49,172 bases of DNA from Nitrospirota bacterium (GTDB taxonomy: Bacteria > Nitrospirota > Thermodesulfovibrionia > Thermodesulfovibrionales > UBA6898). Location: assembly GCA_016235245.1 (NCBI GenBank), contig JACRLO010000022.1, forward strand, positions 1 through 49,172, read 5' to 3'. Position 1 is the first letter of the stretch, and every line of letters begins with the position of its first letter. The notes beneath the pieces were generated by a model, which was given only the letters and a program-made list of their open reading frames with translations, did no database searches and was not told the DNA's origin. Shown here in pieces: positions 19,556-35,377 of the stretch. Position numbers and translations under genes: made by a program.

Positions 19556-21574
19556 TTAAGCGGTAACTGAGCAGGCGTCCAGTTCCTTGAGCCAGAGGAG
19601 TCTTGAGCCGTTAACAGTCATCTTGTTCGTATCCTGCATGAGCTGCTCTGCATCAACGTCATGGCCTGCGTCTTTCTTAAAGGCACTGAACGCAACCTTT
19701 GCCTTTGTCTTTGCCGCCTTCTTGACGTCCGCATCCTTCACCGGCTTAAGTGGTGTGCCCATTACCTCGGCAACGTTCATGAAGATCTCACCGTTCTGTT
19801 TAGCTGATCCGGATGAGACGCATGCCCTGTTGACCTGTTTGATCCTGCCGAGCCAGTCAATGATGGTTCCCTCTGATTCCAGTGCAGGAGTGGCCGGAAG
19901 GACAACATCAGCCTGCGTGGCGAGTTCGGTCAGATGAGAAGCCTGGACCACGAGGAAACCCGTATCAGGACGCTTGTTGACCGGGATCTCTCCAACCACG
20001 TACAGGGCTTTGGATGATGACGCAATGATATCACTGAACTTTTTGCCGCTTGAGGTCATGCCCATAGCAACCACACCTTTTGCGTTCGCTTCGAGAGGCA
20101 CTGCAACCGCTTCACCTTTGATCAGTGCAAGGTTTGCTGCGGCCTTGTACAGGGACGGAGCAGCCAGGAACACCGGCATCTTTGCAGCCAGGAACAGGTC
20201 AGCTGCATTCATGGCATTGTCCGAAGGATTGACCGGGGCCAGGGACTCGATCATCTCCTTTGGCGCCTTCGTGCCCTTTGATATGACAGCCTGGCCGAGT
20301 TCCATCAGCATCTTGACTTCATCGCCGTTGAGGAAAACCGAGGCCTTTGAAGCGATCTTCGGCTCGCCGGAGTTAATGACTATCAGTTTCGCACCGCTAT
20401 TGACCCTTTTCCTCACTGAAGCGTCAAGGGCAGGCAGCACCCGCTTCCACTGATCAGGAGCAATGCCTGCAAGCACGATCAGGTCTGTTTCTTCGAGGTC
20501 TGCACCGCCGCTCTTCATCGCGTCGTATCCGGAATAGAGGCTGACGGTTGAGTCGATATTCTTCGCCTTCAGACCATCAGCGAGTTTCTTCAGCATGGCA
20601 GCATCTTCATTCAGGATCGCGCCGGTTGAAATAAAGGCCGCATCTTCACCCGCAGCCTTCAACTGGTCAGCCACGATCTTTGTCGCATCCTCCCACGTTG
20701 TCTCCTGGAGTTCGCTGCCGACTCTTTTCATCGGCTTGGTGACGCGCATCTCGCTGTACAGGCTGTCAAAACCGAATCTTCCGGTCGCGCATATGGTGCG
20801 CTCAATGCTGCCGTCAGGAGAACCGCTATTGATCTTTATCACACTGCCGTCTTTCTTGCTGACCGTTATGCTGCAGCCGCTTCCACAGGAAACACAGACT
20901 GAAGCCGTCTTTTCGTATTCCCATTCCCGGCCCTTTCTCCAGCGGTCAGATTCCAGCAGAGCATTTACCGGGCAAACATCCACGCAGCTTCCGCAGAATG
21001 TGCAGGATGATTCCTGAAGCGGCTTGTCCTGGGCAGTAACGACCCGGGAGCCGACTCCCCTGCCATTGAAATCAAGGACCTCTGTACCCTGATGCTTGCA
21101 GATACGTACGCATCTGCCGCAGAGCACGCAGTAATCAGGGTCGCGTTTGATAAACGGGTTGGCCGAATCAACAGGGTACCCGAAATTCTTGCGGGTAAAC
21201 GTCGATTCCTTCAACTCGAAATCATAGGCATATTTCTGGAGATTGCAGACCCCTGCCTTCGTGCAGGTCATGCAGTCAAGCGGATGCATCGAAAGGATGA
21301 GATCAATAACGAACTTCCTCGTCTCCTGCACTGCCTCGGTATCGGTCCTGACGACCATGCCTTCCCGAGCTTTGGAGGTGCAGGCGATCAGCGGGGCCTT
21401 CATGCCCTCGACCTCGACCTGGCAGAGCCTGCATGCACCTATGCCCTTCATACCTTTCAGGTAGCAGAGATTCGGGATATGCACACCGGCCGCTGCTGCG
21501 GCATCGATGAGGTTCGTTCCTTCGGCGACCTGGATCGCCCGGTTATCTATCGTCAGATTAATTGTCTTAGCCAT
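19556..21574 (-). CDS. NuoG-like iron-sulfur / molybdopterin-oxidoreductase-fold subunit
   Basis: A 672-residue electron-transfer subunit. The N-terminal [2Fe-2S] ferredoxin domain has cysteines in NLCYLKGMKGIGACRLCQVE. Then come the His-Cys3 cluster site (HPLDCMTCTKAGVC), two [4Fe-4S] sites (CVLCGRCVRIC and CTFCGSCVDVCP) and a further cluster site (CVSCGSGC with a later C). The rest has the molybdopterin-oxidoreductase fold. I see no Cys or Sec at the expected metal-ligand position, so it is probably an electron conduit like NuoG rather than a formate dehydrogenase. It is shorter than E. coli NuoG (about 900 residues). It is the last gene of the operon, 33 bp after the ferredoxin-like subunit. 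Confidence 0.85.
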   Translation of the reverse strand: MAKTINLTIDNRAIQVAEGTNLIDAAAAAGVHIPNLCYLKGMKGIGACRLCQVEVEGMKAPLIACTSKAREGMVVRTDTEAVQETRKFVIDLILSMHPLDCMTCTKAGVCNLQKYAYDFELKESTFTRKNFGYPVDSANPFIKRDPDYCVLCGRCVRICKHQGTEVLDFNGRGVGSRVVTAQDKPLQESSCTFCGSCVDVCPVNALLESDRWRKGREWEYEKTASVCVSCGSGCSITVSKKDGSVIKINSGSPDGSIERTICATGRFGFDSLYSEMRVTKPMKRVGSELQETTWEDATKIVADQLKAAGEDAAFISTGAILNEDAAMLKKLADGLKAKNIDSTVSLYSGYDAMKSGGADLEETDLIVLAGIAPDQWKRVLPALDASVRKRVNSGAKLIVINSGEPKIASKASVFLNGDEVKMLMELGQAVISKGTKAPKEMIESLAPVNPSDNAMNAADLFLAAKMPVFLAAPSLYKAAANLALIKGEAVAVPLEANAKGVVAMGMTSSGKKFSDIIASSSKALYVVGEIPVNKRPDTGFLVVQASHLTELATQADVVLPATPALESEGTIIDWLGRIKQVNRACVSSGSAKQNGEIFMNVAEVMGTPLKPVKDADVKKAAKTKAKVAFSAFKKDAGHDVDAEQLMQDTNKMTVNGSRLLWLKELDACSVTA

Positions 21575-21607: not shown

Positions 21608-22198
21608 CTAAACACCAACAGGATCTTTTGCATTCGCAGCAACAAGAACGATCGCTTCTACGGGACAGACCTTGATACATGCACCGCACCGGGTGCAGCG
21701 CTTCAGCCTTATCTCTAAAGGGAAATAGCCCGACTTGTACGGCTGCTTCTTCTCACCGAATATTGCCAGGGCCTTGCAGACATCCTTGCATTCGCCGCAT
21801 ATGGTGCACTTCTCCGGAATGATCCGGTATTCGATGAGGCTGGCGCACTGCATGTCAGGGCACCTGCCTTCCACATGCTCCTGGTATACATCGGTTGCCA
21901 TCCAGTCAAGGATGAATTTACCGGTATCCTTTCCCTTCTTGCAGAAAGAGGCCTCGATCATGTCCACTGCAATTCTTTTCAGGGCACGAAGATCCGTTTC
22001 GACGCCTTTTCCGTCTACCAGGTTCTGGAGCCGTATCCTCGCTTCGTAACTGCCCATAGCACAGGGAAAGCATCTGCCGCACATCGGTCCTGCCAGAAAT
22101 TCGGTCACAAAATAGAGTGCCTTCTGGACAGGACAGGACTTCTCCTCTGCCGCAGTCTTTATATCTTCTACTTTTGGTTCTTTTATCGGTTCTGTCAT
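21608..22198 (-). CDS. stand-alone NuoF C-terminal-like protein with N3-type and ferredoxin clusters
   Basis: A 196-residue soluble protein. Residues about 25-110 resemble the C-terminal [4Fe-4S] domain of NuoF: CGRCFPCAMGSYEARI with a fourth cysteine about 40 residues on in ASFCKKGKDTGKFIL. The neighbouring NuoF homologue has its own version (CGKCPPCRVGTYQ ... GSLCGLGQ). Then come CPDMQCASL and two ferredoxin motifs, CTICGECKDVC and CTRCGACIKVCP. No FMN- or NADH-binding region is present. It lies between the nuoF-like and nuoG-like genes, so it is probably an extra electron-wiring subunit of the same complex. Partial domain duplication of nuoF is the likely origin. Confidence 0.8.
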   Translation of the reverse strand: MTEPIKEPKVEDIKTAAEEKSCPVQKALYFVTEFLAGPMCGRCFPCAMGSYEARIRLQNLVDGKGVETDLRALKRIAVDMIEASFCKKGKDTGKFILDWMATDVYQEHVEGRCPDMQCASLIEYRIIPEKCTICGECKDVCKALAIFGEKKQPYKSGYFPLEIRLKRCTRCGACIKVCPVEAIVLVAANAKDPVGV

Positions 22199-22210: not shown

Positions 22211-24547
22211 TTACATATCCTCTGCCATGTAAATAACCTCAGGGAGCAGATACGAAACAAGGTCACGGTAGTTGATCATGCCGGCGATCTTCTCATCCTC
22301 GGTCACGGGGAGATGCCTGATCTTCCTGTCCGACATGAGTTGCACGGCGACCGCGATATCGACCGATGAATCGAGAGTTATCGGGTTTGCTGTCATGACA
22401 TTGCCCATGAGTTCATCGTTCATCGCGACTTTCTTGGCAAAGCAGTGCATGATGTCCCTCTCGGTGAATATACCGAGGAGGTTCTCCTTATCGTCGACAA
22501 CCAGCAGAGAACCGATGTTGTTGCCGTCCATGATCGTCACCGCATCTGCAAGCTTGCAGTCCTTCTTGCAGGTAAAGACCTTCATCGGCTTGGAACTTAA
22601 TACATCCTTCAGTGTCATCTTCGCCCTCCTTTCAAGGACCTCTAATTTATCCGTAGGAACCCTGAACTGCTCTTCCAGTTTTACCACGCTCTGCTTCTTG
22701 ATCTTGACCGCACCGACTGGGCAGACCGTATAACAGGCCTTGCACTTGGTGCAGTACTGGCGGTCGATCGTGTAAATGTCTTTCGTCTCCTTCACTGCAT
22801 CGAAGGCGCAGGCCTGTTTGCAGAGACCGCAGCGGATACAGTCAGGCTGATGGATCAGGAAGATACCCGTGTTGCTGCAGACATTTGACCTGCAGTAGTT
22901 GTCATAAATATGTTCTTCGTATTCGTGCCTGAAATATTTGATCGTGCTGAGTACTGGATTGGGAGCACTCTGACCAAGACCGCAGAGCGAACCCTTCTGG
23001 ATAAGCTTCCCAAGATCGATCAGGCGCTGAATGTCGCCGTGCTCACCATGGCCGGTCGTTATACGTTCCAGAATCTGCAGCATCTGGTAGGTGCCGACCC
23101 TGCAGGGAGGACACTTGCCGCATGATTCCGACTGGGTAAAGGACAGGAAGTATTTTGCAACATCCACCATGCAGGTCTCCTCATCGAGGACAACCATGCC
23201 GCCCGAGCCCATCATGGAGCCGACCCGGTACAACGAATCAAAATCAACCGGCAGGTCAAGCTGGGCAGCAGGCAGGCATCCGCCTGAAGGCCCGCCGGTC
23301 TGAATGGCCTTAAATTCCTTGTTGTCCAGAATACCGCCGCCGATATCATAAATGATCTCTCTCAATGTTGTGCCCATAGGTACTTCCACAAGCCCGGTAT
23401 TCTTCACTTTGCCGGTCACTGCAAAGACCTTTGTTCCCGGCGATGTCGTGGTGCCGATACCCAGGAACCAGTCAGCGCCCTTCTCGATGATCGGAGGCAT
23501 ACAGGCATAGGTCTCGATATTATTCAGATTGCTCGGATACCCCCAGAGTCCTCCTCCCACCTCGGAAAGTCTTGGAGGCCTCGGCCTGGGAAATCCCCTT
23601 TCGCCTTCAATCGATGCAACCAGGGCGGTAGACTCACCGCAGACAAACGCGCCCGCACCCTCTCTGATATCAACAATAAAATCAAACCCCGTTCCGAGGA
23701 TATTCTCGCCAAGCAGCCCCAGTTCCTCTGCCTGTTTGATCGCCAGTTTCAGGTTCTTCACCGCAAGGGGGTATTCGTGCCTGACATAGATAAAACCATA
23801 GTGGGCCTTCAGTGCATAAGCGCAGACGAGCATGCCTTCAAGAAGGCTGTGAGGATCGCCTTCCATGATAGCTCTGTCCATAAATGCGCCGGGGTCTCCT
23901 TCATCACCGTTGGCGATCACGAACCGTGTCTTTTCAGGAGATTTGTTCGTATGGGCCCACTTCTTGCCGGCAGGAAATCCTGCCCCGCCCCTGCCTCTTA
24001 GGTTCGCCCGATCAATCTCGTGCAGAACACTGTCAGAGGACATCGAGCCGAACATCTTTTCAGCGGCGCTGTACCCGCCGACTGCGAGATATTGGTGAAT
24101 ATTGTTCGGGTCTATCCTGCCATTGTTCCTCAGAGCTATTCTGAGCTGCTTCTTATAGAACGGAACATTCTGGACCTCTTCGACAGGACTGGTCATGATC
24201 GAATCCCTGTATAAAAGAGATCTGAGCGATGTCCCGGCAGAAAACGTGTGCGCGATAAGATTTTTCGCATCATCCGGTTTCACTTTCTGATAGAAAAAAC
24301 CGTGTGGTTCGACACTCATTACCGGGCCTTTCTGACAGAGGCCCTGGCATCCGGTCTTGACGACTTCGAGCTCTATGCCCTTTCCTGCTGACTCCGCCTC
24401 GAGTTCCTTCACCAGCTTTTTGGATCCGGAAGCAACACAGGCTGTGCCGCAGCATATTCTCACCCTGTTTTTGTCGGTGGTAAAGGTCTCATCCTTCAAT
24501 TGACTTCTCAGCTTTATCAGATCATCTATGCTGTTCAATCTGCTCAT
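22211..24547 (-). CDS. NuoF/HndC-like NADH-binding flavoprotein with ferredoxin and C-terminal CBS domains
   Basis: A 778-residue multi-domain subunit. Residues about 25-110 form a thioredoxin-like [2Fe-2S] domain (RICCGTACVASGSK, TGCQGLCQKGP). The FMN/NADH core includes GRGGAGFPAGKKW near 185-197 and GAGAFVCGESTALVASIEG. SLBB and N3-cluster regions follow (CGKCPPCRVGTYQ, GSLCGLGQSAP). Two [4Fe-4S] ferredoxin motifs (CIRCGLCKQACAFDA, CTKCKACYTVCPVGA) precede a CBS pair from about 644 to 775 (IGSLLVVDDKENLLGIFTERD, RKIRHLPVTEDEKIAGMINYRD). The order up to the ferredoxins matches bifurcating-hydrogenase HydB/HndC; the CBS pair is an unusual addition. It likely oxidises or reduces NAD(H), with CBS regulation by adenine nucleotides inferred only. 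It sits 3 bp after nuoE. Confidence 0.9.
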   Translation of the reverse strand: MSRLNSIDDLIKLRSQLKDETFTTDKNRVRICCGTACVASGSKKLVKELEAESAGKGIELEVVKTGCQGLCQKGPVMSVEPHGFFYQKVKPDDAKNLIAHTFSAGTSLRSLLYRDSIMTSPVEEVQNVPFYKKQLRIALRNNGRIDPNNIHQYLAVGGYSAAEKMFGSMSSDSVLHEIDRANLRGRGGAGFPAGKKWAHTNKSPEKTRFVIANGDEGDPGAFMDRAIMEGDPHSLLEGMLVCAYALKAHYGFIYVRHEYPLAVKNLKLAIKQAEELGLLGENILGTGFDFIVDIREGAGAFVCGESTALVASIEGERGFPRPRPPRLSEVGGGLWGYPSNLNNIETYACMPPIIEKGADWFLGIGTTTSPGTKVFAVTGKVKNTGLVEVPMGTTLREIIYDIGGGILDNKEFKAIQTGGPSGGCLPAAQLDLPVDFDSLYRVGSMMGSGGMVVLDEETCMVDVAKYFLSFTQSESCGKCPPCRVGTYQMLQILERITTGHGEHGDIQRLIDLGKLIQKGSLCGLGQSAPNPVLSTIKYFRHEYEEHIYDNYCRSNVCSNTGIFLIHQPDCIRCGLCKQACAFDAVKETKDIYTIDRQYCTKCKACYTVCPVGAVKIKKQSVVKLEEQFRVPTDKLEVLERRAKMTLKDVLSSKPMKVFTCKKDCKLADAVTIMDGNNIGSLLVVDDKENLLGIFTERDIMHCFAKKVAMNDELMGNVMTANPITLDSSVDIAVAVQLMSDRKIRHLPVTEDEKIAGMINYRDLVSYLLPEVIYMAEDM

Positions 24548-24550
24548 CGG

Positions 24551-25042
24551 TTAGTCCTCTTTAATTGACTTGATCATATCATTCAGTTTCTTCTTGCCGA
24601 TATCGCCAACGACATCCTCATTGATCGTCGCAACAGGAGCCAATCCGCAACAGCCGACGCAGCCGACCGTTTCGAGGGTCATCGCAAGGTCCGGTGTAGT
24701 CTCACCATCTTTGATGCCGAACTCCCCCTCAATGGCATCAAGGACCTTTTTTGCGCCCCTGACATGACAGGCCGTCCCCATGCAGACCCTGACGACCTTC
24801 CTGCCGCGTGGAGAAAAATGGAATTGCTTATAAAAACTTGCAACGCTGTAAATTTCTGCAAGGGGAAGCGACAGTTTTTTTGCAAGCTGCCTGAGAACAT
24901 CTTCAGGCAGATATCCATGCTCCTCCTGGATCTTCTGAAATGTATGGATGAGGACTCCCTTTTTCCTGTCATGCTCGCAGAGGATCGATCCCACCTTACC
25001 GATCACTTCATCGACATTGACATTGACCTCTTCTACGTTCAT
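24551..25042 (-). CDS. NuoE/HndA-like [2Fe-2S] subunit
   Basis: A 163-residue thioredoxin-fold subunit. After a helical N-terminus (LIHTFQKIQEEHGYLPEDVL) come VASFYKQFHFSPRGRKVVRV, the first cysteine pair CMGTACHVRGAK and the second CVGCCGLAPV, which together bind a [2Fe-2S] cluster. The start at 25042 is chosen because GAGGTG lies 5-6 nt upstream; an ATG seven codons earlier (25063) lacks a ribosome site. It is the first gene of the four-gene redox operon, and an 18-bp perfect palindrome lies about 60 bp upstream of it. Confidence 0.9.
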   Translation of the reverse strand: MNVEEVNVNVDEVIGKVGSILCEHDRKKGVLIHTFQKIQEEHGYLPEDVLRQLAKKLSLPLAEIYSVASFYKQFHFSPRGRKVVRVCMGTACHVRGAKKVLDAIEGEFGIKDGETTPDLAMTLETVGCVGCCGLAPVATINEDVVGDIGKKKLNDMIKSIKED

Positions 25043-25101
25043 GGCTTCACCTCTGCTGAGCATTCTTTAACTGCATCTTGCTTCCGATGCTATCTGCACT
25101 C

Positions 25102-25386: not shown

Positions 25387-26250
25387 GTGTACAAGATACT
25401 CAGCAAAGAGGTATTGAGCGATGTAGTAAAACTTATGGATATTGAAGCTCCGCATGTTGCCCGAAAAGCGGCGGCTGGCCAGTTCGTAATCGTTCGCATT
25501 GACGAGTTCGGCGAACGGATTCCCCTGACCATTGCTGATTACAGCCGTGAAAAAGGAACGATCACCATCATCTTTCAGGAACTCGGCAAATCAACCATGC
25601 AGTTAGGCAAGCTCAACCCCGGAGATTCATTGGCATCCTTTGCAGGTCCTCTTGGACATCCCACCGAGATCGAGAATTTCGGCACCGTGGTCTGTATGGG
25701 AGGAGGCGTCGGTATTGCGCCGATCTATCCGATTGCGCGGGCACTCAAGGAGGCAGGCAACAAGGTCATATCCATCATCGGAGCGCGCACAAAAGAGCTG
25801 CTCTTCTGGGAAGAAAAGATGCGGGTTGTTTCTGATGAACTCATTATCTGCACGGATGACGGCTCAATAGGCAGAAAGTCGCTGGTAACAGAACCTCTGA
25901 AAGAAATCCTCGATAACAAAAATAATACGATCGCAAAGGTCTGGGCAATCGGTCCGGCCATTATGATGAAGTTTGTTACGCTGACCACCAAACCCTATAA
26001 TGTTCCGACTATTGTAAGCCTGAACACGATCATGATTGACGGCACCGGTATGTGCGGAGGCTGCAGAGTGCTCCTTGAGGACGGCGCGCAGTTTGTCTGC
26101 GTTGACGGCCCGGAGTTCAACGGTCATAAAGTCGACTGGGATAATCTTCTCTCCCGCCTTTCGTTCTATAAAAATGAAGAGAAGCAGGCTGTTGAACACT
26201 ATGAGCATACGTGCAGGATAGATGGCGCTATTGTAAAGGGGAGGGAATAA
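25387..26250 (+). CDS. nfnA: NfnA: NAD-binding FAD/[2Fe-2S] subunit of NADH-dependent ferredoxin:NADP+ oxidoreductase
   Basis: A 287-residue ferredoxin-NADP reductase-fold protein (also annotated sulfide dehydrogenase subunit beta). It begins at a GTG five bases after GAGGAGG. The FAD-binding barrel includes RIPLTIADYSREKGTITIIF, the nucleotide-binding domain has CMGGGVGIAPIYPIARAL, and the [2Fe-2S] site is MCGGCRV (C223, C226) with C238. In characterised Nfn complexes this small subunit carries the bifurcating reaction's NAD(H)-side FAD. The large subunit gene overlaps its stop (TAATG). Confidence 0.88.
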   Translation: MYKILSKEVLSDVVKLMDIEAPHVARKAAAGQFVIVRIDEFGERIPLTIADYSREKGTITIIFQELGKSTMQLGKLNPGDSLASFAGPLGHPTEIENFGTVVCMGGGVGIAPIYPIARALKEAGNKVISIIGARTKELLFWEEKMRVVSDELIICTDDGSIGRKSLVTEPLKEILDNKNNTIAKVWAIGPAIMMKFVTLTTKPYNVPTIVSLNTIMIDGTGMCGGCRVLLEDGAQFVCVDGPEFNGHKVDWDNLLSRLSFYKNEEKQAVEHYEHTCRIDGAIVKGRE

Positions 26251-27701
26251 TGGCTGAACTGAAACCTGCAGAACGCATGAAGATCAAGCGGCACGAAATG
26301 CCGAACCAGGATGAGCATGTCCGCAGCTGCAACTTTGATGAGGTTGCGCTTGGCTATACGCTGGAGACGGCAAAAGAAGAGGCAGAGCGCTGTCTGCAAT
26401 GCAAAGACCCCAAATGCGTGCAGGGCTGCCCTGTCGGCGTCCTGATACCGCAGTTTATCAAGGCAGTTCGCGAAGGCGACCTGGTAAAGGCAGTGGAATG
26501 GATGAAGGTGAAGAATAATCTGCCTGCCATCTGCGGCAGGGTCTGTCCCCAGGAAAACCAGTGCGAAGGCAACTGCATCCTCGGCAAGAAAGGTGAGCCT
26601 GTAGCGATCGGCAGGATCGAGCGTTTTGTCGGCGATTATGAACTCAGCCATCGCACCTGCCCTTTGGTAAAGGCGCCCAAAACCGGGAAAAAGATTGCAG
26701 TCGTAGGATCAGGTCCGGCCGGACTTACCTGTGCCGTGGATCTCGGCAGGGAAGGCCATGACGTAACAATCTTTGAGTCGCTGCACGGTCCAGGAGGTGT
26801 ACTCATCTACGGCATACCGGAGTTCAGACTGCCCAAGAGCGTCGTAAGCGGAGAGGTCAACTATGCCGTTGAATGCCTGGGCATCGACCTCAAGACCGAC
26901 CATGTCATCGGCAGGTCCTTCACTCTCGATGAATTGCTGAACGACTTCGACGCTGTTTTCCTCGGCACCGGCGCAGGGCTTCCATCCTTCATGCGCATTC
27001 CGGGCATCAACTTAAACGGTGTCATGTCTGCAAATGAGTTTCTGACACGGGTAAACCTGATGAAGGCATACCAGTTCCCTGACTATGATACACCGGTCAG
27101 ATTAGGAAAAAAAGTGGCCGTAATCGGTGCCGGCAATGTGGCTATGGATGCGGTGAGATGCAGCCGGAGGCTCCTGTCTCTTGAGGTTAAAAAGACCGGT
27201 GGGACACCGGGCGAGGCATATATCGTATATCGGCGATCCAAGGATGAGGTGCCGGCAAGAGCCGAGGAGGTGCACCATGCTGCAGAGGAAGGGGTGATCT
27301 TCAATTTCCTGACCAATCCGATCGAAATCCTGGGCGATGATAAAAGGACCGTGCGTGCGCTTCGCTGCGTGCGCATGGAACTTGGAGAGCCCGATGCTTC
27401 AGGCAGAAGAAAGCCTGTAGAGATCAGGGGATCAGAATTCGATATGGAGGTAGACACCGTAATCATGGCCCTTGGCACCAACCCCAATCCGATCGTTTTT
27501 GTGGATGCTGACGGGCTGGAGAGGACTAAATACGGGACTGCTGTTGCAGACAATGAAACAGGAAGGACAAAGAAAAAACATGTCTGGGCAGGCGGCGATG
27601 TCGTGACCGGCGCAGCGACTGTCATCAGCGCCATGGGCGCAGGCAAGCGGGCAGCCGCAGATATTAATAAGTTCCTTAAGGGCGAGGCTGGCTGGGAATA
27701 A
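26250..27701 (+). CDS. nfnB: NfnB: NADPH-binding large subunit of the Nfn transhydrogenase (glutamate-synthase small-subunit-like)
   Basis: The ATG at 26250 shares one base with the nfnA stop and is preceded by GGGAGGG; an upstream in-frame start inside nfnA is rejected. The 483-residue product has N-terminal [4Fe-4S] motifs (CLQCKDPKCVQGCPVG, CGRVCPQENQCEGNC), an FAD-binding VVGSGPAGLTCAVDL near 150, an NADPH-binding VIGAGNVAMDAVRC and a late GGDVVTGAATVI. In Nfn the two subunits couple NADPH oxidation to NAD+ and ferredoxin reduction, or the reverse. Because nfnA is directly coupled, Nfn (or the equivalent SudAB) is preferred over a glutamate synthase subunit; no gltB is nearby. Confidence 0.88.
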   Translation: MAELKPAERMKIKRHEMPNQDEHVRSCNFDEVALGYTLETAKEEAERCLQCKDPKCVQGCPVGVLIPQFIKAVREGDLVKAVEWMKVKNNLPAICGRVCPQENQCEGNCILGKKGEPVAIGRIERFVGDYELSHRTCPLVKAPKTGKKIAVVGSGPAGLTCAVDLGREGHDVTIFESLHGPGGVLIYGIPEFRLPKSVVSGEVNYAVECLGIDLKTDHVIGRSFTLDELLNDFDAVFLGTGAGLPSFMRIPGINLNGVMSANEFLTRVNLMKAYQFPDYDTPVRLGKKVAVIGAGNVAMDAVRCSRRLLSLEVKKTGGTPGEAYIVYRRSKDEVPARAEEVHHAAEEGVIFNFLTNPIEILGDDKRTVRALRCVRMELGEPDASGRRKPVEIRGSEFDMEVDTVIMALGTNPNPIVFVDADGLERTKYGTAVADNETGRTKKKHVWAGGDVVTGAATVISAMGAGKRAAADINKFLKGEAGWE

Positions 27702-27791: not shown

Positions 27792-29765
27792 TTACAGACC
27801 TGTATGTGCCTTAATCTCACGCCGTGCAGCCATGTCCATAAGGACCTTTTCAGTGCCGAACTTGCCTGGCTCATACTTCTTCAGCTTCAGGTTCTCACGG
27901 GCCTTATCGATATAGTCAAGTGCCATGGCGAGCATCTTCTCAGGGTCAGGCTCAAAAACCAAAGCGCCCTTGAACCGCTCCATCCAAACCTCGGTCATGA
28001 TCCGGGTAACTTCCTTTGACGCCTTGAAAGGAGACTCACCGCCAAAGATACAGGGAACGCCTGAGGCTGCAAAATAGACACCGATAGAAATGGCCTTCTC
28101 GGTAATAAACTCAGGAGCTATACCCACTGCAGGCATACCGCCGATCTCATCGGACAAGCCGCCCTCTGCAGCCATTGCGCTAGCGATCGTAAGTATGCGT
28201 GAGTTGTCGACACATGCTCCAAGGTGCAGGATCGGTGGAATGCCGATCGCCTCGCAGACCTCTCTGAGACCGGGACCTGCATGCTCAAGCGCCATTTCAG
28301 GAGTCAGATAGCCGGACCCTCCGCAGGCCGCAGAACTACAGCCGGTCGATACGATCAGAACATCATTTTTTATCAGTTCTGTTGCCAGGAATTTGTGAAC
28401 GCTTGTCGAAGGCCACCTGGGGTTGTCACAACCGGCAAGACCGACAACACCGCGAACACGGCCGGCCATGATGGCATCATTGAGCGGCCTGAAGGAGCCT
28501 CTCCATTTTCCGCCCTGCATATACTCAATATACTCGTGAGAGAAACCTCCGATCAGAGGGAACTTCTCGGTAACATGACTGCCCTGCTTCGTCCTGTTGG
28601 GGTAATTGTCAATCGCCATCCTGACGATCTGACGGGCCTGGTCCTTTGCAATATGCTCATCAAAGGAAATATGGGTAGCGCCAGGGATCTTTACCTTATC
28701 GGATGAGGTAACGACAATAGTATGGAACTTCTTTGCCACATCGACAATGGCAGGAATAATACACTGGACATCAACGGTGAAGAGATCGATCAGGCCGGTC
28801 ATAATGGCAGGCTCCTGGTTTGTAAAGCCTCCGGCAGTAGCAATGCCATGTCTCATCAGGACTTCATTTGCCGTACAGCACATGCCGCCCAGGTTGATAC
28901 CCTTTGCACCCTTTGTCTGCGCATAGGCGATAAGTTCAGGTTCACTGACCGCCTCGACGATCATCTCGGCCAGAGAAGGTTCATGACCATGAACAACAAT
29001 ATTCACTTCATCTTCCTTGAATATACCAAGACTCGCCTCTGCCTTGATCGGCATCGGCGTGCCGAAAAGGATATCAGTCACGTCTGTCGAGATCATGCTT
29101 CCGCCCCATCCGTTTGCAAGGGCGCACCTGACAGCAGCGTTTAATATCGAATCCGCATCAGCATCCATACCCATGGTCGTTCTATCAACAACTTCGACGG
29201 TATCACGGTCCATGCCACGCGGCATAACACCGTATTTCTTCCAGCGCTCCTGGGTCTTCTTGGGGGCACGCTTAACAAAATTCATCTCCCCCCTCTGCCT
29301 GCTGAAATCCTCGAGGAGCTTGTTGGCAACATCCTTTGCCACATCATGGACCTCTCTGCCCTCGAATTCAATTTCGAGGATATCGGCAGTCCGGTACAGC
29401 TTTTTCACATCCTTGACCTTGAAGTCTTTGGCATGCCCCTCGGCAACAGCAAGGAGCGTAAAGACCATATCGCGACCATGGTCGCCATGAGCTGCCGTGC
29501 CGCCGGCAACCATGCGTGCCATGTACCGGGCTGCCACGACCGGGAGTGTGGCTCCGCAGACACCGCGTGCCTCTTCCTCGGCATTCTTGCCCACAAGTCG
29601 GCAGGGACCCATATAGCAGTTCTTGCAGCAGGCACCCTCGTGGCCTATGGGGCAGGGTTTCATTTTATCGGCCCTGTCAAAACAGGTTTCAATACCAATC
29701 ATATTTTCTATGACCTGTGCAGTACCGGCTTGCGCTGTTCTTATTCTCTTATCTGTCTTGCTCAT
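27792..29765 (-). CDS. acsA: anaerobic carbon monoxide dehydrogenase catalytic subunit
   Basis: The Ni-Fe-S CODH (CooS/AcsA family) interconverts CO2 and CO with low-potential electrons. The 657-residue length is typical. The N-terminal D- and B-cluster cysteines are in order: C38 and C46, then C47, C50, C55 and C70 (CPIGHEGACCKNCYMGPCRL). Further cysteine- and histidine-rich segments (GGMCCTANEVL, VVGLAGCDNPR, STGCSSAACGGSGYL, HLGACVDNSR) supply C-cluster ligands. It lies 19 bp after acsB, as the last gene of the acs run, so it is the ACS partner rather than a free CooS. Nickel loading would need CooC. Confidence 0.96.
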   Translation of the reverse strand: MSKTDKRIRTAQAGTAQVIENMIGIETCFDRADKMKPCPIGHEGACCKNCYMGPCRLVGKNAEEEARGVCGATLPVVAARYMARMVAGGTAAHGDHGRDMVFTLLAVAEGHAKDFKVKDVKKLYRTADILEIEFEGREVHDVAKDVANKLLEDFSRQRGEMNFVKRAPKKTQERWKKYGVMPRGMDRDTVEVVDRTTMGMDADADSILNAAVRCALANGWGGSMISTDVTDILFGTPMPIKAEASLGIFKEDEVNIVVHGHEPSLAEMIVEAVSEPELIAYAQTKGAKGINLGGMCCTANEVLMRHGIATAGGFTNQEPAIMTGLIDLFTVDVQCIIPAIVDVAKKFHTIVVTSSDKVKIPGATHISFDEHIAKDQARQIVRMAIDNYPNRTKQGSHVTEKFPLIGGFSHEYIEYMQGGKWRGSFRPLNDAIMAGRVRGVVGLAGCDNPRWPSTSVHKFLATELIKNDVLIVSTGCSSAACGGSGYLTPEMALEHAGPGLREVCEAIGIPPILHLGACVDNSRILTIASAMAAEGGLSDEIGGMPAVGIAPEFITEKAISIGVYFAASGVPCIFGGESPFKASKEVTRIMTEVWMERFKGALVFEPDPEKMLAMALDYIDKARENLKLKKYEPGKFGTEKVLMDMAARREIKAHTGL

Positions 29766-29784: not shown

Positions 29785-31989
29785 CTAAATTATTGAATCC
29801 ATCTCAAGCGCAGGATGTCCTACTGCCGTAAGATGTTCCAATAATTTTTCAGAGTCCTCGCAGATCGTCTCATCTGCTATTTTTTCAAGAAGGTCCGGCA
29901 CACCAGCCTCCTCAGCCCTTTTCTTGAATTCCTCGCCTATTCTCTCCTTCAGATTCTTCGGCATCCAGACAATTCTCCGGATTCCGCCGTCACCGAAAAG
30001 GAACTTCTTACTGGTCGTAAAGTTCACACCAACACCCATAAATCCAGGGGTCTGGGCTCCGCCGCCTACCGTTCCGGCAAGGGTAGAGAATTTCATCCCA
30101 ACCGGCGTCATCCCGGTAAAGCCGCGGTTTACGATCATGACTCCGTTTGCCTCAGGTACGATTGCGAGGATACATTCGAAGCATCCGCACGAGGTCATCG
30201 GATTTTCCATGATCGTATAAAGGTTCAGGGTCTCAACAGCCCCGCCTGTTGCCTTCTTGAGGTAATCATCAGCTCCGGTATACCGTCCATACCGGGCGTC
30301 CACGCATTCACCTTTTTCAATAGGCTGGTTGCCGCCAGTAGGATCAATCTCATACGCTGCTTTTCCGTCAAGCCAGTTGTATGCGCCGCAGAGGCCAAGG
30401 CGCTCAGGGGTAATAACGCATACATGGGCCGGGGCAAAGGACTGGCAGAGCAGACAGGAATAAAAGACGTCAACCGCCTCATCGGTCAGATTGCCGAGCC
30501 TGTGGTCACGCTCCTTATACGCTGCACGCGCTTCCTCGAGTTTCTGCTTCACATCACCTTCATCGATAAAGAGCGTCACCTGAACCTTATCGACAATCGA
30601 TTTAAAGCGATGATGGGTCATGGCAGCATTCACCACACCCAGATGTTCCAGGGTAAAGCCTTCCTTCTTCGCATTGTTGCTTATTCTTATCCAGTTAATA
30701 TCTCTCTGGCCCATATGCCATACACCCTGGGCCTCATTGATATTGGCATGGATCTTTCTCTCTAAAACAGATTCAAAATCCTTCTGCATCTTGCGGCCGG
30801 CAACTTCGATGAGAAGTCCAAGCGGCAACTGACCGCCTTTTTCGAACCTCTCCTGCCAGTTGTCGCCGACTACAATGATCTTATTGTCCTCGATCTCATC
30901 CAGTTTACGCATCCTGACGAACTCAAAGGCAGGCGTCCGCTGACCGCCGAACTCGATAAACGTATCTTCCTTTCTGATTCGCTCACCTTCAAAAGCAGGA
31001 CCGAATGCAACAGGGATCGGCGGCTTCTCGACCGTGATCTTGAGACCGCGGAGCTCGATGGCCCTGCGGACGATCTTGGCATGATCGAATTCCTTGTCAA
31101 CTTCTTCATATGTGCAGACGCCGGTTGGATGAATAACCGGCACATCGGTGTCCGCAATGGCAGGGAAGCCCATATTGATGGCTCCGGCACCCGTGCTCCA
31201 CTTGATATCATCCAATGGCCCCAGAGCAATGGCGAAGGCGAAAACCCTGTCCTTCTGATATTTCAAATGCCCCTTGAAATCGCTGGGCTTCTTGCCGCCG
31301 AAGATCAGCGATGCACGGATCGCCCAATCAAGGGCATAGAGTGTATGCTCAGTGCCGGGACCAAGCGGAACAATTCTGGCGTCCCAGCCGAGCTCCACGC
31401 CTTTTCTGAGTAGCTGTTTGGTGACGCTGTCTCCATTGGACTCACCGGACAGGAAGGTAAGAATGTTCTTCTCCTGCAGTTCACGGACTATCGTTACCGC
31501 AATGTCTTCAGTCGGCGCTGCTCCGATAATTGCTGCAAAGCCAGGCATGGAACCATCGACCAGCTGCACGCCAAGGTTTCTCTGGATCGTATCCGTGATA
31601 AAACCATTATAGACGAATTCTTTTCCGTCTATTGTCTCCTTGCAGGGCTCAAGCCCGTATATGTATCTGACCGCAAGCAGGATCTCTTCAGCAAAGAGCG
31701 TAGCCATGCCCGAGTCAAGAGCTTCGCCGAGATACGGTTTCCAGATATGCTCCTCCGGCTCATCATGAAGCAGTTCCTTGGCAAATCCGAGGGCAACATT
31801 CATGTCGCCCAGTGTCTTCACCGCGAACCCTGTCATCGCGTAGATCATGGGCAGATAAAACGCCGTATCAGGGAACTCGAAGACAAAATCCTTTCCTTTT
31901 TCTGCAATCGCTTTCTGGAGCATTTCATCCGCCTGTTTAACGAGCGTCTGAGCACCCCGTATGGCTGCAGATGCGATAAGTTTGGACAT
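29785..31989 (-). CDS. acsB: acetyl-CoA synthase (CODH/ACS complex subunit)
   Basis: Condenses CO, a methyl group from the corrinoid protein and CoA to acetyl-CoA. The 734-residue protein has the full A-cluster ligand set at spacing identical to the Moorella enzyme: C512, C515, C524 and C534 (CLLCQSFAPAHVC, GLCGAYNW), and the proximal-nickel C601-G602-C603 (SCGCFECI). The N-terminal CODH-contact domain is present, so it is a bacterial AcsB and not the shorter archaeal CdhC. A promoter-like sequence and a terminator-like hairpin lie between it and acsC. Confidence 0.97.
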   Translation of the reverse strand: MSKLIASAAIRGAQTLVKQADEMLQKAIAEKGKDFVFEFPDTAFYLPMIYAMTGFAVKTLGDMNVALGFAKELLHDEPEEHIWKPYLGEALDSGMATLFAEEILLAVRYIYGLEPCKETIDGKEFVYNGFITDTIQRNLGVQLVDGSMPGFAAIIGAAPTEDIAVTIVRELQEKNILTFLSGESNGDSVTKQLLRKGVELGWDARIVPLGPGTEHTLYALDWAIRASLIFGGKKPSDFKGHLKYQKDRVFAFAIALGPLDDIKWSTGAGAINMGFPAIADTDVPVIHPTGVCTYEEVDKEFDHAKIVRRAIELRGLKITVEKPPIPVAFGPAFEGERIRKEDTFIEFGGQRTPAFEFVRMRKLDEIEDNKIIVVGDNWQERFEKGGQLPLGLLIEVAGRKMQKDFESVLERKIHANINEAQGVWHMGQRDINWIRISNNAKKEGFTLEHLGVVNAAMTHHRFKSIVDKVQVTLFIDEGDVKQKLEEARAAYKERDHRLGNLTDEAVDVFYSCLLCQSFAPAHVCVITPERLGLCGAYNWLDGKAAYEIDPTGGNQPIEKGECVDARYGRYTGADDYLKKATGGAVETLNLYTIMENPMTSCGCFECILAIVPEANGVMIVNRGFTGMTPVGMKFSTLAGTVGGGAQTPGFMGVGVNFTTSKKFLFGDGGIRRIVWMPKNLKERIGEEFKKRAEEAGVPDLLEKIADETICEDSEKLLEHLTAVGHPALEMDSII

Positions 31990-32110: not shown

Positions 32111-33448
32111 TTACCGTGACTTCAGAAATGTCGGTATCGCATTGGCCTCACGGGGACCAACCGTTATTTTCCATCCCGGCAGCTTCTCCTCGACCGCACC
32201 GCTCAGGATCGCCACATAACCGGGGAGAATGAGTTCCTTGCCCGGAACATCCTTCTCCACGCCGCTGTCCTGAATAAACTGCGCTATCTTCGAGGCAGTA
32301 AACTTGCCGGCAGCCCATGCCGTAAGAACAGAAAGACCCTCACAATCCATGACCGCAAGCCTGCTTGCGACCTTGCTGTTTTCGATCTCGCCGGAAACAA
32401 TGAAGTAGGTAAGCGAGAAGTTCGTGGTGATGAAAAGAGGAGAAGTCGCAGTGGGCTCACCGATATTATAGATCTTCTGCTCGACCTGCATCGGGACCTG
32501 CGGATCAGTATAGATGTTCTGCCTGAGTGTAAAGAGTGCAAGATTTTTCCACTTCTCGATGCTGCTCAGGACAATGATCGATGCATACTTTGCAATGCCG
32601 ACGCTCGCCAGCAGTCCCTCAACAAGACTGTCTCCGTGCTGCATGAAATTGATGACTGGATAGCCCACCGACTTGACGCCTTTCTTGATGGCAGCCCTTC
32701 TGATAAGCGTATTGTGCTCGATAATATCTTTTGCCCTGCGCGCGCCGGAATCCATGATCATATCTTCAACGCCGAGGCCCTTGACCTTTTCAGTAAGATC
32801 GGTCAGCTCATCAAGTCCGTTTGCCGCGATACCAAGCGTTGCCTTATTGGCCTTGGCTACCGCCGCCATTGCCTCTACATTAGATGCGTTTGCACCGTAT
32901 ATGACCGGCTTCTTGTCGCTAAAGGGCTTTACGGCCGCTTCCGCTGCCTGTGGGTTCGTGGTGCTGATGATCACCGGCACCCCTGCCGCTTTTGCTGCAA
33001 CGATCTTTGCAGCGGCCTCAAGCTTGCCTGCATCACCGGACACATTAGAGATCATGATAGCGTTGATCCTGAGCTTCTGACCAACCCTGTCGATCTCGGA
33101 ATCAACCACCTGCTGACAGAGTTTCGCTGTCTCGTCCTCTGAAAGCGTGTCTTTGATCTCGATGGCAAAGGCGCAGGGATTGACGAATTTTTTATCGTGA
33201 CGGAAAAGGACGGTCTCCTCTCCCATCTTGACAGCCTTGTCGCCGGCACCAAGGGTGATCGGGCGGATAGGCGGGGCCGAGGCCTCACCCAGTTTCTGTT
33301 TCGCCTCTTCGGATACATCAGGACAGGAGTCAATACTCGCCTGTCTCTGCGCAAGTTTCATGGCAAAGGCAAGACAGGTCGGTGACCCGCATTTTTTGCA
33401 GTTTGTTTTCGGTAAGAGTTTAAATATTTCAACGCCGGATAAAGCCAT
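32111..33448 (-). CDS. acsC: corrinoid/iron-sulfur protein large subunit
   Basis: The gamma subunit of CFeSP carries the [4Fe-4S] cluster that reactivates cobalt and, with AcsD, the corrinoid that shuttles the methyl group to ACS. The N-terminal cluster motif C17-x2-C20-x4-C25-x16-C42 (LPKTNCKKCGSPTCLAFAM) matches the family exactly. A TIM-barrel middle and a C-terminal corrinoid-binding region (LSVLTAWAAGKFTASKIAQF) complete the normal 445-residue length. The start is preceded by GGAGG; acsD lies 15 bp upstream. Confidence 0.96.
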   Translation of the reverse strand: MALSGVEIFKLLPKTNCKKCGSPTCLAFAMKLAQRQASIDSCPDVSEEAKQKLGEASAPPIRPITLGAGDKAVKMGEETVLFRHDKKFVNPCAFAIEIKDTLSEDETAKLCQQVVDSEIDRVGQKLRINAIMISNVSGDAGKLEAAAKIVAAKAAGVPVIISTTNPQAAEAAVKPFSDKKPVIYGANASNVEAMAAVAKANKATLGIAANGLDELTDLTEKVKGLGVEDMIMDSGARRAKDIIEHNTLIRRAAIKKGVKSVGYPVINFMQHGDSLVEGLLASVGIAKYASIIVLSSIEKWKNLALFTLRQNIYTDPQVPMQVEQKIYNIGEPTATSPLFITTNFSLTYFIVSGEIENSKVASRLAVMDCEGLSVLTAWAAGKFTASKIAQFIQDSGVEKDVPGKELILPGYVAILSGAVEEKLPGWKITVGPREANAIPTFLKSR

Positions 33449-33463
33449 GGTTATTCCTCCTTC

Positions 33464-34405
33464 TTAGACCAGTTCGTCAATTAACGTTTCAACAGCCTTG
33501 ATAGCCTTGGGATGCCTCATGATCAGGAGTTCAGCTCCGGCGATCAGGAGCGCTCCGGCCGTCTCGGCCTCCCAGGCAATACCACGTTCTTCGGCTGCAC
33601 CCCACTGCGGCAGATCAGCCTCGGATGCACTTGCTTCCTTGATCTTCCAGACGTACATGCCTACATCCCCCAGAAGGGGCTGCTGCATGGTCACGTCATT
33701 CTGCGTCAGTGCGGCAAGTCGTATCCTTTCCATGACCGAGTAGGTATATTCAAGGCCGTATCCCAGCGCCGAGCACATCGGGTCTGTTATGACCTTTTCC
33801 TTGTCAAACCCCATCTGCGAAATCAGGATGTTCAGCTGTTTTGAAAGGTTGATATCAAGCTCTGACATGGCGATCAGCTTGTGGTTGTTCGCCATGGCAG
33901 CAGCAGCGATCGTCTTATAGTTTGCTTCCTGCGCCTTGCCGATAATGCAGTTTTTGTCCTTGGCAGCTTCCGCAGCAGCAACAAGCACAGCGGTATCCTT
34001 TTCTGCATGGTTGCTGCCGAGAATAATCAGAGGAATCTGGACCGCAGCAAGGACGTCCTTCACTGTCTTGGCTGCGTCTTCCGGAGAACGGTTCTCCCTG
34101 TCAGGGTGGGTGCCGACCAGTCTCAGGGCAATCGCCTTTGCCTTGAGTTCATCCTGACAATATTTTGCCCAGGCAACTGGGTCATTGCTTACCGCCTCAT
34201 AAGGCTTTCTCACATTCTCCGGCCAGTCTGACGGAGGAACATCCTGTATCTCCATTGCGATGACAGGCCTGTTCGGTGTCGCTCCCTCAAAAGAATGAAA
34301 GGGAAGCACATTCTCGCCGCCAAAGGTCACTGCCTTTTCACCCGTGCCGATGGTTACTGGATAGACCTTGCCGGAGTACGTCTCTTTCGGTGCTGTAAAT
34401 GCCAT
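33464..34405 (-). CDS. acsD: corrinoid/iron-sulfur protein small subunit
   Basis: The 313-residue TIM-barrel delta subunit of CFeSP pairs with AcsC to enclose the corrinoid. Recognisable stretches are VTIGTGEKAVTFGGENVLPF, PVIAMEIQDVPPSDWPENV, ALRLVGTHPDRENRSPED and DPMCSALGYGLEYTYSVMER. The start has a strong AGGAGG. It lies 15 bp before acsC, and 114 bp after acsE across an imperfect inverted repeat. Confidence 0.95.
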   Translation of the reverse strand: MAFTAPKETYSGKVYPVTIGTGEKAVTFGGENVLPFHSFEGATPNRPVIAMEIQDVPPSDWPENVRKPYEAVSNDPVAWAKYCQDELKAKAIALRLVGTHPDRENRSPEDAAKTVKDVLAAVQIPLIILGSNHAEKDTAVLVAAAEAAKDKNCIIGKAQEANYKTIAAAAMANNHKLIAMSELDINLSKQLNILISQMGFDKEKVITDPMCSALGYGLEYTYSVMERIRLAALTQNDVTMQQPLLGDVGMYVWKIKEASASEADLPQWGAAEERGIAWEAETAGALLIAGAELLIMRHPKAIKAVETLIDELV

Positions 34406-34431
34406 GGTATAACCTCCTGTTTGTCGTAATC

Positions 34432-34514
34432 AGTAATGTGTGATGCGTAATGAGTAAAAGAACTTATGCAATTCCTGTTCTGCGCCCGTTACGCATTACC
34501 CATCACTCATAACG
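34432..34514. repeat. imperfect inverted repeat (TGATGCGTAATG family) between acsE and acsD
   Basis: Arms at 34432-34459 and 34487-34514 pair at about 22 of 28 positions around a 27-base loop. Each arm is itself built of short near-repeats such as GTAATG, GTGATG and GTAATGAG. Repeats of this GTGATGxGTAATG style occur dispersed between genes in several anaerobes. Inside the acs message it could fold into a stable stem that influences acsE/acsDC stoichiometry, or simply be a mobile intergenic repeat. Confidence 0.7.
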
Positions 34515-34519
34515 GTCTA

Positions 34520-35377
34520 TTACATTTCAAGATATGAGTGAGCGTACAGTGTTCTTCCCATGATGACGTCAAGCGTTTTGCTGATCTCGGCCATCTTCTG
34601 TTTGTCCGCTATCTCCTTGCCTGCCATCACATCCAGGATCAGACCCCGTTCCTCATTCACCTCTGCCATCTCCTTGGCGTCGGCTATTGCGGCGGTCAAA
34701 CCTGCCTCCTGAAGCAACACAAACATATGTTTGTTTAAGATCGGCCTGAGAGCTTTCGGACAACCGTTTGAAATATTGCTCAACCCGACAACGGTCTTCA
34801 TGGCCGGCTCATTGATATGCTGGAATAACTGAACCGCTTCGATAACATGACGGGCCTGGTCCTGGGTTGTCGCTATCTGCAGGACAAGAGGGTCGAGATA
34901 GAGGTTCTCAAGAGGAAGCCCGTATTCCATGGCGCGTCCCATGATCTCTGCTGCGATGCCGGCTCTTTCTTCTGCATCAGCAGGAAGACCACCCTTGCCG
35001 ACCGTGAGGCCGATAACATCACAATTATATTTTGCACCGAGTGCCAGGATCGGGAACCGTTCAGGATCGTTCGAGGTCGAATTGATCAGCGGCTTGCCCC
35101 ATTGATTATTGTGGATCTTGAGACCTGCCTCGATCGCCTTGAAATTCGTGGTGTCAAGACATACGGGAAGAGGAACAACCTCCTGTATCGTGGTCACCAT
35201 CCACTGCATGAGGTCCTCGCCTCCATCCTCAGCAGGGCCGATGTTCGCATCGATGATGCCCGACCCTTCCTTCCACTGCCTGGTCGCGATCTCCTGGATC
35301 GGCCCTTTGTCCTTCTTCATCATAGCTTCCCGAACCCGTTTGGCTATGATACTCAACTTCTCTCCAATGATCAGCAT
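34520..35377 (-). CDS. acsE: methyltetrahydrofolate:corrinoid/iron-sulfur protein methyltransferase
   Basis: Moves the methyl group from CH3-THF to cobalt of CFeSP, joining the methyl and carbonyl branches. It is a 285-residue pterin-binding (DHPS-like) TIM barrel. GEKLSIIAKRVREAM, GSGIIDANIGPAEDGGEDL, CLDTTNFKAIEAGL, INSTSNDPERFP and VVGLSNISNGCPKAL line the folate site. It has a GGAGTCC-type ribosome site (AAAGGAG) and is the first gene of the acsE-D-C-B-A run. Confidence 0.94.
   Translation of the reverse strand: MLIIGEKLSIIAKRVREAMMKKDKGPIQEIATRQWKEGSGIIDANIGPAEDGGEDLMQWMVTTIQEVVPLPVCLDTTNFKAIEAGLKIHNNQWGKPLINSTSNDPERFPILALGAKYNCDVIGLTVGKGGLPADAEERAGIAAEIMGRAMEYGLPLENLYLDPLVLQIATTQDQARHVIEAVQLFQHINEPAMKTVVGLSNISNGCPKALRPILNKHMFVLLQEAGLTAAIADAKEMAEVNEERGLILDVMAGKEIADKQKMAEISKTLDVIMGRTLYAHSYLEM

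Follow-up and report, generated by a model that had tools for sequence, protein, structure and literature searches.

A flavin-free copy of the HydB C-terminal module as a probable fourth subunit of CODH-linked Bfu complexes in Nitrospirota

Nitrospirota with the Wood-Ljungdahl pathway need a source or a sink for the very low-potential electrons of CODH, and how they come by it is a question on which a gene cluster of a Nitrospirota bacterium bears (GenBank assembly GCA_016235245.1, contig JACRLO010000022.1). Positions 1 to 49,172 of the contig were analysed and are referred to here as the window. Beside CODH and acetyl-CoA synthase (ACS) genes, the window carries a tight four-gene unit in the order bfuC-bfuB-SMALL-bfuA, all on the minus strand (Table 1). 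SMALL is the name used here for the third gene and its product. The NuoE-like bfuC sits 3 bases upstream of the NuoF-like bfuB; SMALL starts with ATG 12 bases past the stop of bfuB and ends 33 bases before bfuA. Elsewhere in the window, a single 1225-aa ORF (13676-17353) appears to unite an ScpA-like with an isoleucyl-tRNA synthetase-like segment; in some relatives the match is confined to a separate ORF that covers about 250 aa of it.

Table 1. Coordinates of the acs/bfu genes in the window and of the parts of SMALL.
Feature	Coordinates	Strand	Source
SMALL, flavin-free HydB/BfuB C-terminal module, 196 aa	21608..22198	-	
SMALL helical bundle with N3/B1-type ligands C40, C43, C46, C86 (residues 23-100)	21899..22132	-	Pfam, model
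SMALL Cys/His/Cys/Cys site C22, H108, C113, C118; counterpart of the HydB hinge site for Zn (or B2)	21845..22135	-	
SMALL dicluster ferredoxin domain (B3/B4-like), 8 Cys, residues 122-187	21638..21835	-	Pfam, model
BfuA/NuoG-type subunit: five cluster sites and MopB domain without the pterin-binding C-terminal domain	19556..21574	-	
BfuB/HydB-type subunit: N-terminal 2Fe-2S, FMN/NADH, N3, ferredoxin pair, C-terminal CBS pair	22211..24547	-	Pfam
BfuC/NuoE-type subunit, 2Fe-2S, thioredoxin-like	24551..25063	-	
NfnA/NfnB-like pair in the interval from BfuC to CODH; recurs beside this cluster	25387..27701	+	
CODH catalytic subunit (AcsA/CooS type)	27792..29765	-	TIGR01702
Acetyl-CoA synthase (AcsB)	29785..31989	-	NF040764
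AcsC, AcsD, AcsE (corrinoid protein subunits and methyltransferase)	32111..35377	-	

The NADH_4Fe-4S domain (PF10589) matched SMALL at residues 27-100 (E 2.4e-12), followed by two Fer4 motifs (residues 125-183) with the ligands C131/134/137/141 and C168/171/174/178. Neither the Complex1_51K FMN domain (PF01512) nor SLBB was found by Pfam in SMALL or in any of 56 homologues, and both are present in the neighbouring BfuB. SMALL is predicted to carry three [4Fe-4S] clusters. These Pfam domains bear out an earlier note on this DNA, which had described an N3-type domain shared with the neighbour and no flavin or NADH site. The same note had counted two N3-like clusters and two ferredoxin pairs in the complex. 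The first count stands; the second has to be raised, since BfuA bears a further ferredoxin-type pair and the four proteins hold three of them. Two features had been overlooked: the conserved residues C22, H108, C113 and C118 of SMALL, and the CBS pair that ends BfuB.

The earlier note had also placed the relatives of SMALL at the C-terminus of NuoF. This could be refined: the relatives are bifurcating HydB/BfuB subunits and not respiratory NuoF. The top solved sequence relatives were the C-termini of bifurcating HydB (8a6t_B, residues 466-627, 87 bits, E 1.1e-23). An AlphaFold2 model built with 56 sequences (mean pLDDT 83, pTM 0.73) consisted of a helical bundle and then a dicluster ferredoxin domain, and every one of the first eleven Foldseek matches to it was the B subunit of a bifurcating enzyme (HydABC, NfnABC, StnABC, Wor-type); 159 residues aligned with 9bp5_B at 2.0 A. 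The [FeFe] hydrogenase CbA5H was also among the fold matches (9f46_A, Z 12.9, 157 residues). Domain order and fold of SMALL are those of the C-terminal part of HydB/BfuB in HydABC, NiFe-HydABCSL, StnABC and NfnABC, whereas SMALL is a protein of its own without the FMN, NADH or N-terminal 2Fe-2S parts, and CKKGKDT stands where HydB/BfuB have the CGLGxxAPxP loop after the fourth N3 cysteine. In Thermotoga maritima HydB, a Zn hinge held by three Cys and one His lies beside a four-helix bundle, and the chain continues into a mobile bridge domain that carries clusters B3 and B4 (PMC9499530). The same site in HydB of Acetomicrobium mobile has been modelled as a [2Fe-2S] cluster, B2, with Cys/Thr as fifth ligand (PMC9304861).

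Conservation of the ligands was assessed in 127 SMALL and 128 BfuB sequences, collapsed to 108 each by identity of the last 150 residues, with the window sequence added to give 109. Twelve of the 16 SMALL ligands were kept in 109/109 distinct sequences; the remaining four were nearly so (C22 in 105, C40 and C43 in 108 each, C46 in 107), the exceptions being gaps and one Tyr at C46. The ligands, whose loss in homologues had been named beforehand as evidence against a cluster-bearing subunit, are therefore essentially invariant. The position of the fifth B2 ligand, as assigned from our alignment, is occupied in BfuB by Thr in 105 and Cys in 2 of 109 sequences, with the B2-site His in 108/109. 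In SMALL this ligand is mostly lost (Val 35, Ala 18, Ile 17, Thr 11, Gln 10, Ser 9, and others; n = 109), so the hinge site is probably occupied by Zn and not by a redox-active cluster. Loss of the fifth ligand would also suit a SMALL that is integral to the complex but mainly structural, its bundle and Zn site dimerising or holding the complex with the clusters off the electron path. In CbA5H, Zn is held by C113, H199, C205 and C210 in a domain that makes the homodimer (PMC13397568), and the order of these ligands and their first spacing (86) are those of C22-H108 in SMALL. We nevertheless regard a mainly structural role as unlikely: the 12 Cys of three potential clusters are near-invariant throughout the phylum, and scaffolding needs no such conservation.

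In a tree of 68 sampled rows, in which the rows of families f23 and f14 carry a long-branch warning, SMALL and the copies fused to BfuB (see below) were split from all BfuB tails by a branch with 100/100 support and a length of 2.04, and the six fused copies nested inside the SMALL clade. This topology indicates a single deep origin of SMALL, with fusion coming later. SMALL would have arisen from the C-terminal part of BfuB, comprising the N3 bundle, the metal hinge and the mobile ferredoxin pair, with loss of the flavin part. The mobile arm of HydB is thereby shown to be duplicable and reusable as a module.

The partners of SMALL point to the Bfu family. The window BfuB has the complete domain set of the family and the His and Cys of the B2 site, and BfuC is encoded alongside. 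BfuB scored 713 bits against 8a6t_B and 709 bits against 7t2r_B vs. 364 bits against Nqo1 of complex I. Membership in a respiratory complex I could be ruled out, BfuB being much nearer to bifurcating HydB than to NuoF; moreover, no membrane subunit occurs among the identified genes of the window acs/bfu cluster. All five sets of cluster ligands were present in 126/126 BfuA sequences. A catalytic formate dehydrogenase in BfuA is unlikely: the pterin-binding domain PF01568 was found in 0/39 BfuA members, and complex I NuoG was on top of the fold matches, which included the catalytically inert HydA of NiFe-HydABCSL, an enzyme with its active site in the partner HydSL. Formate dehydrogenase alpha subunits score well against BfuA because they have the MopB fold in common. 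As BfuA has every cluster but no catalytic site, the third substrate would have to fall to a different protein, by analogy with NiFe-HydABCSL. The CBS pair of the window BfuB (22211-22700) is missing from many relatives, in which BfuB has about 630 aa vs. about 780 aa, and at two loci (L063, L067) the CBS-matching stretch forms an ORF of its own in the vicinity, a hint of nucleotide control.

A comparison of gene neighbourhoods, which the earlier note had called for, placed SMALL between bfuB and bfuA at nearly every locus. It covered 80 named loci out of 164 relatives, and a set of 40 loci that partly overlaps the named set. The named loci were of Nitrospirota type or unassigned, except L155 (Deferribacteres). 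BfuB was immediately upstream of SMALL in 76/78 named loci with a visible flank, as well as in L133 according to its gene table, and BfuA was immediately downstream in 77/80. The order differed in L101 (CODH next), L123 (a second BfuB between), L126 (an insertion) and L145 (other genes upstream). An apparent SMALL::BfuA fusion in L147 and L177 turned out to be an ORF-calling artefact, BfuA having been extended out of frame over SMALL; the apparent absence of SMALL from L057, L084, L122, L147 and L177 had the same cause, and L053 and L054 proved to be genuinely different Bfu operons.

The common operon was acsE-acsD-acsC-acsB-acsA(CODH)-bfuC-bfuB-SMALL-bfuA; in others the bfu genes lie between acsC and acsB (e.g., L068, L140, L143, L148, L151). 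Upstream sequence of 6 kb or more was available for 64 named loci, and 49 of these had a CODH gene on the same strand within 9 kb. The 15 others include L081, with CODH just beyond 9 kb, and L140, a locus truncated by a contig end. Genomes chosen mostly for a non-adjacent CODH all contained CODH (18/18) and, in a slightly larger set, ACS (20/20). In family f23, from another Nitrospirota class, 11 genomes have SMALL, and the order bfuB-SMALL-bfuA-CODH was seen in 9/9 inspected loci; in G107 and G064 the CODH of this operon was the sole CODH match at E<=1e-80. In the four f23 genomes checked, ACS lies elsewhere, beside another Bfu operon without SMALL (L178-L181). At L178, two adjacent Bfu sets follow the ACS operon. 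The class of f23 may be 9FT-COMBO-42-15, which is our guess, prompted by a passage of PMC11033732.

NfnB was encoded at 22 of the 80 named loci, which suggests that NADPH is tied to the same CODH/Bfu node.

Of the 295 Nitrospirota genomes sampled, 116 gave matches to SMALL and 106 were counted as having it at E<=3.9e-44, the others holding HydB-type tails only; SMALL is thus not a chance ORF. BfuB of the window type (E<=1e-240) was present in 100/295 genomes, and all 100 had SMALL, with 36 expected by chance. In the six genomes counted with SMALL only (G073, G119, G131, G243, G282, G289), BfuB adjoins SMALL in each; contig ends truncate or divide it in five, and in G243 it falls below the threshold. 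Six near relatives without SMALL had, at E<=1e-60, no BfuB more than 52% identical to that of the window.

In six genomes of family f11, the BfuB reading frame runs on into SMALL, giving fusion proteins of about 900 aa with SMALL at the C-terminus. The fused SMALL follows an extra pair of ferredoxin motifs in L051, the tail of which was dissected, and likewise in the full sequence of L052. No other observation speaks as strongly as this fusion for assigning SMALL to the Bfu complex and not to CODH. All six fused genes lie in operons of the order BfuB::SMALL-bfuA-porC-porD-porA-porB, encoding a four-subunit pyruvate:ferredoxin oxidoreductase (POR; subunits of L051 named by NCBIfam). SMALL therefore does not go with CODH alone, and any low-potential enzyme of the ferredoxin type might be its partner. 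With 196 aa, three predicted clusters and a gene of its own in most genomes, SMALL might instead be an independent ferredoxin-like carrier whose contacts with BfuB or CODH are transient and whose link to them is no more than co-transcription. We find this rather improbable in view of the in-frame fusion to BfuB and the 100/100 co-occurrence with one BfuB type; in addition, SMALL keeps the bundle that packs within the complex in HydB. SMALL is probably the conserved fourth component of an electron-bifurcating complex of the HydABC (Bfu) family, usually linked to CODH or CODH/ACS, and would form a second cluster arm there. The position between bfuB and bfuA, the co-occurrence, the natural fusion and the ligand conservation all speak for subunit status, in agreement with the extra subunit of a NuoEFG-like complex that had been proposed from the window alone.

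Several loci complicate the link with CODH. Two second-copy CODH-BfuB operons (L195, L197) have neither SMALL nor BfuA. The full BfuB sequence of L197 has two extra [4Fe-4S] motifs, as do the BfuB proteins of L172 and L196, and in L172 SMALL is retained beside a decayed BfuA. The L195 and L197 operons and the four-cluster BfuB tails mean that clusters can be added to BfuB in other ways and that linkage to CODH has no strict need of SMALL. The shared operon could also reflect co-regulation only.

The second CODH loci L172, L145, L195, L196 and L197 follow genes for the nickel-pincer cofactor and for two further proteins (CODH itself is not visible in L145). The genes larC2, larE and larB were identified in L172, and genes of equal sizes occur in the other four; a hydrogenase upstream of SMALL in L172, guessed from gene sizes, was wrong, the genes being LarC2/LarE/LarB. 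The two further proteins, of 590 and about 233 aa, had no Pfam or NCBIfam match in L172. Five loci (L058, L067, L111, L123, L200) have two or three BfuB copies and one SMALL, and in L058 and L200 the BfuB adjacent to SMALL has a four-cluster tail as in the fused proteins. The genome of the window contains a second ACS-CODH pair (L186, 7878-12062; 81% and 71% identical) without Bfu genes, in the neighbourhood of MarR, SCP2, thioesterase, radical SAM/B12 and DUF1638 genes.

In a working scheme, the BfuBC core would trade electrons with NADH and ferredoxin in the manner of HydABC, and SMALL, a further arm with a metal hinge of its own, would carry electrons between the core and CODH or POR. SMALL would thus sit in the complex, where it may contact the core via BfuA or BfuC. 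The branch point for electrons to a second acceptor, suggested in the earlier note, is plausible. The conserved candidates for handling the third substrate are SMALL and CODH or POR, and we infer that SMALL is the best candidate for passing electrons between the core and CODH, or POR where fused. In CO oxidation the reaction would be that proposed by Schut et al. for Codh-Bfu, CO with NAD+ and ferredoxin (PMC9304861); in autotrophic growth the same reaction could run in reverse, presumably aided by low CO levels. More tentatively, the enzyme may be double-armed, with the swinging HydB arm serving ferredoxin and SMALL docking directly to CODH, or to POR in the fused form. If so, CO/CO2 or pyruvate, NAD(H) and ferredoxin would be balanced within one complex, and free ferredoxin would no longer be the sole go-between. 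In HydABC of T. maritima, the bridge domains of HydB reciprocate on the Zn hinge and both cannot close (PMC9499530). SMALL copies this unit and might, as decoy or regulator, be a rival of the mobile BfuB arm for the closed position and so gate bifurcation; this is very improbable, there being no sign of gating in the sequence, and the ligand conservation favours redox activity. With SMALL as a conducting subunit, the linkage of CODH/ACS, in one operon found across the phylum, with a bifurcating NADH/ferredoxin complex that has a dedicated extra cluster subunit offers a concrete and testable answer to the question of the CODH electrons.

In the open-access papers searched, we found no description of such a subunit; SMALL is probably a previously overlooked fourth Bfu subunit. 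The nuoEF genes reported close to CODH/ACS in a different phylum may be related (PMC6305446). CbA5H has accessory (SLBB) and ferredoxin domains that share with SMALL the fold, the lack of flavin, a Zn site of the Cys/His/Cys/Cys type and a pair of [4Fe-4S] clusters, but there the module is part of a one-chain hydrogenase, whereas SMALL is a separate protein; the iron count given for CbA5H seems to leave no room for an N3 cluster. In the classification of Schut et al. (2022; PMC9304861), as its text has it, Codh-Bfu is placed solely in Firmicutes (clade 49, with the CODH gene between bfuB and bfuA), Por-Bfu is found mainly in Chloroflexi and syntrophic Proteobacteria, and 17 clades have no function assigned. 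As in the Nitrospirota operons, BfuABC genes of these two types are clustered with CODH or four-subunit POR, and in the window CODH is clustered with bfuABC. Codh-Bfu and Por-Bfu differ in that their BfuA is without two cluster sites; the Nitrospirota BfuA, with its five ligand sets in 126/126 sequences, is therefore not the Type 2 BfuA of Codh-Bfu, which lacks A3 and A5. Nor does the text of PMC9304861 mention for them an extra BfuB-tail subunit like SMALL. A full set of clusters in a BfuA that lacks a catalytic domain is typical of Type 3 Bfu, and a Type-3-like Bfu is our best reading of the complex; for the extra subunit with a third-substrate site found in Type 3, only CODH or POR neighbours were observed. 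A close parallel is NiFe-HydABCSL of A. mobile, a Type 3 Bfu whose BfuA of about 670 aa likewise has all cluster sites and no active site, and in which the electrons of the third substrate are supplied by the separate HydSL (PMC8880783). There the extra subunits are the NiFe hydrogenase HydSL; in Nitrospirota they would be SMALL and, probably, CODH or POR.
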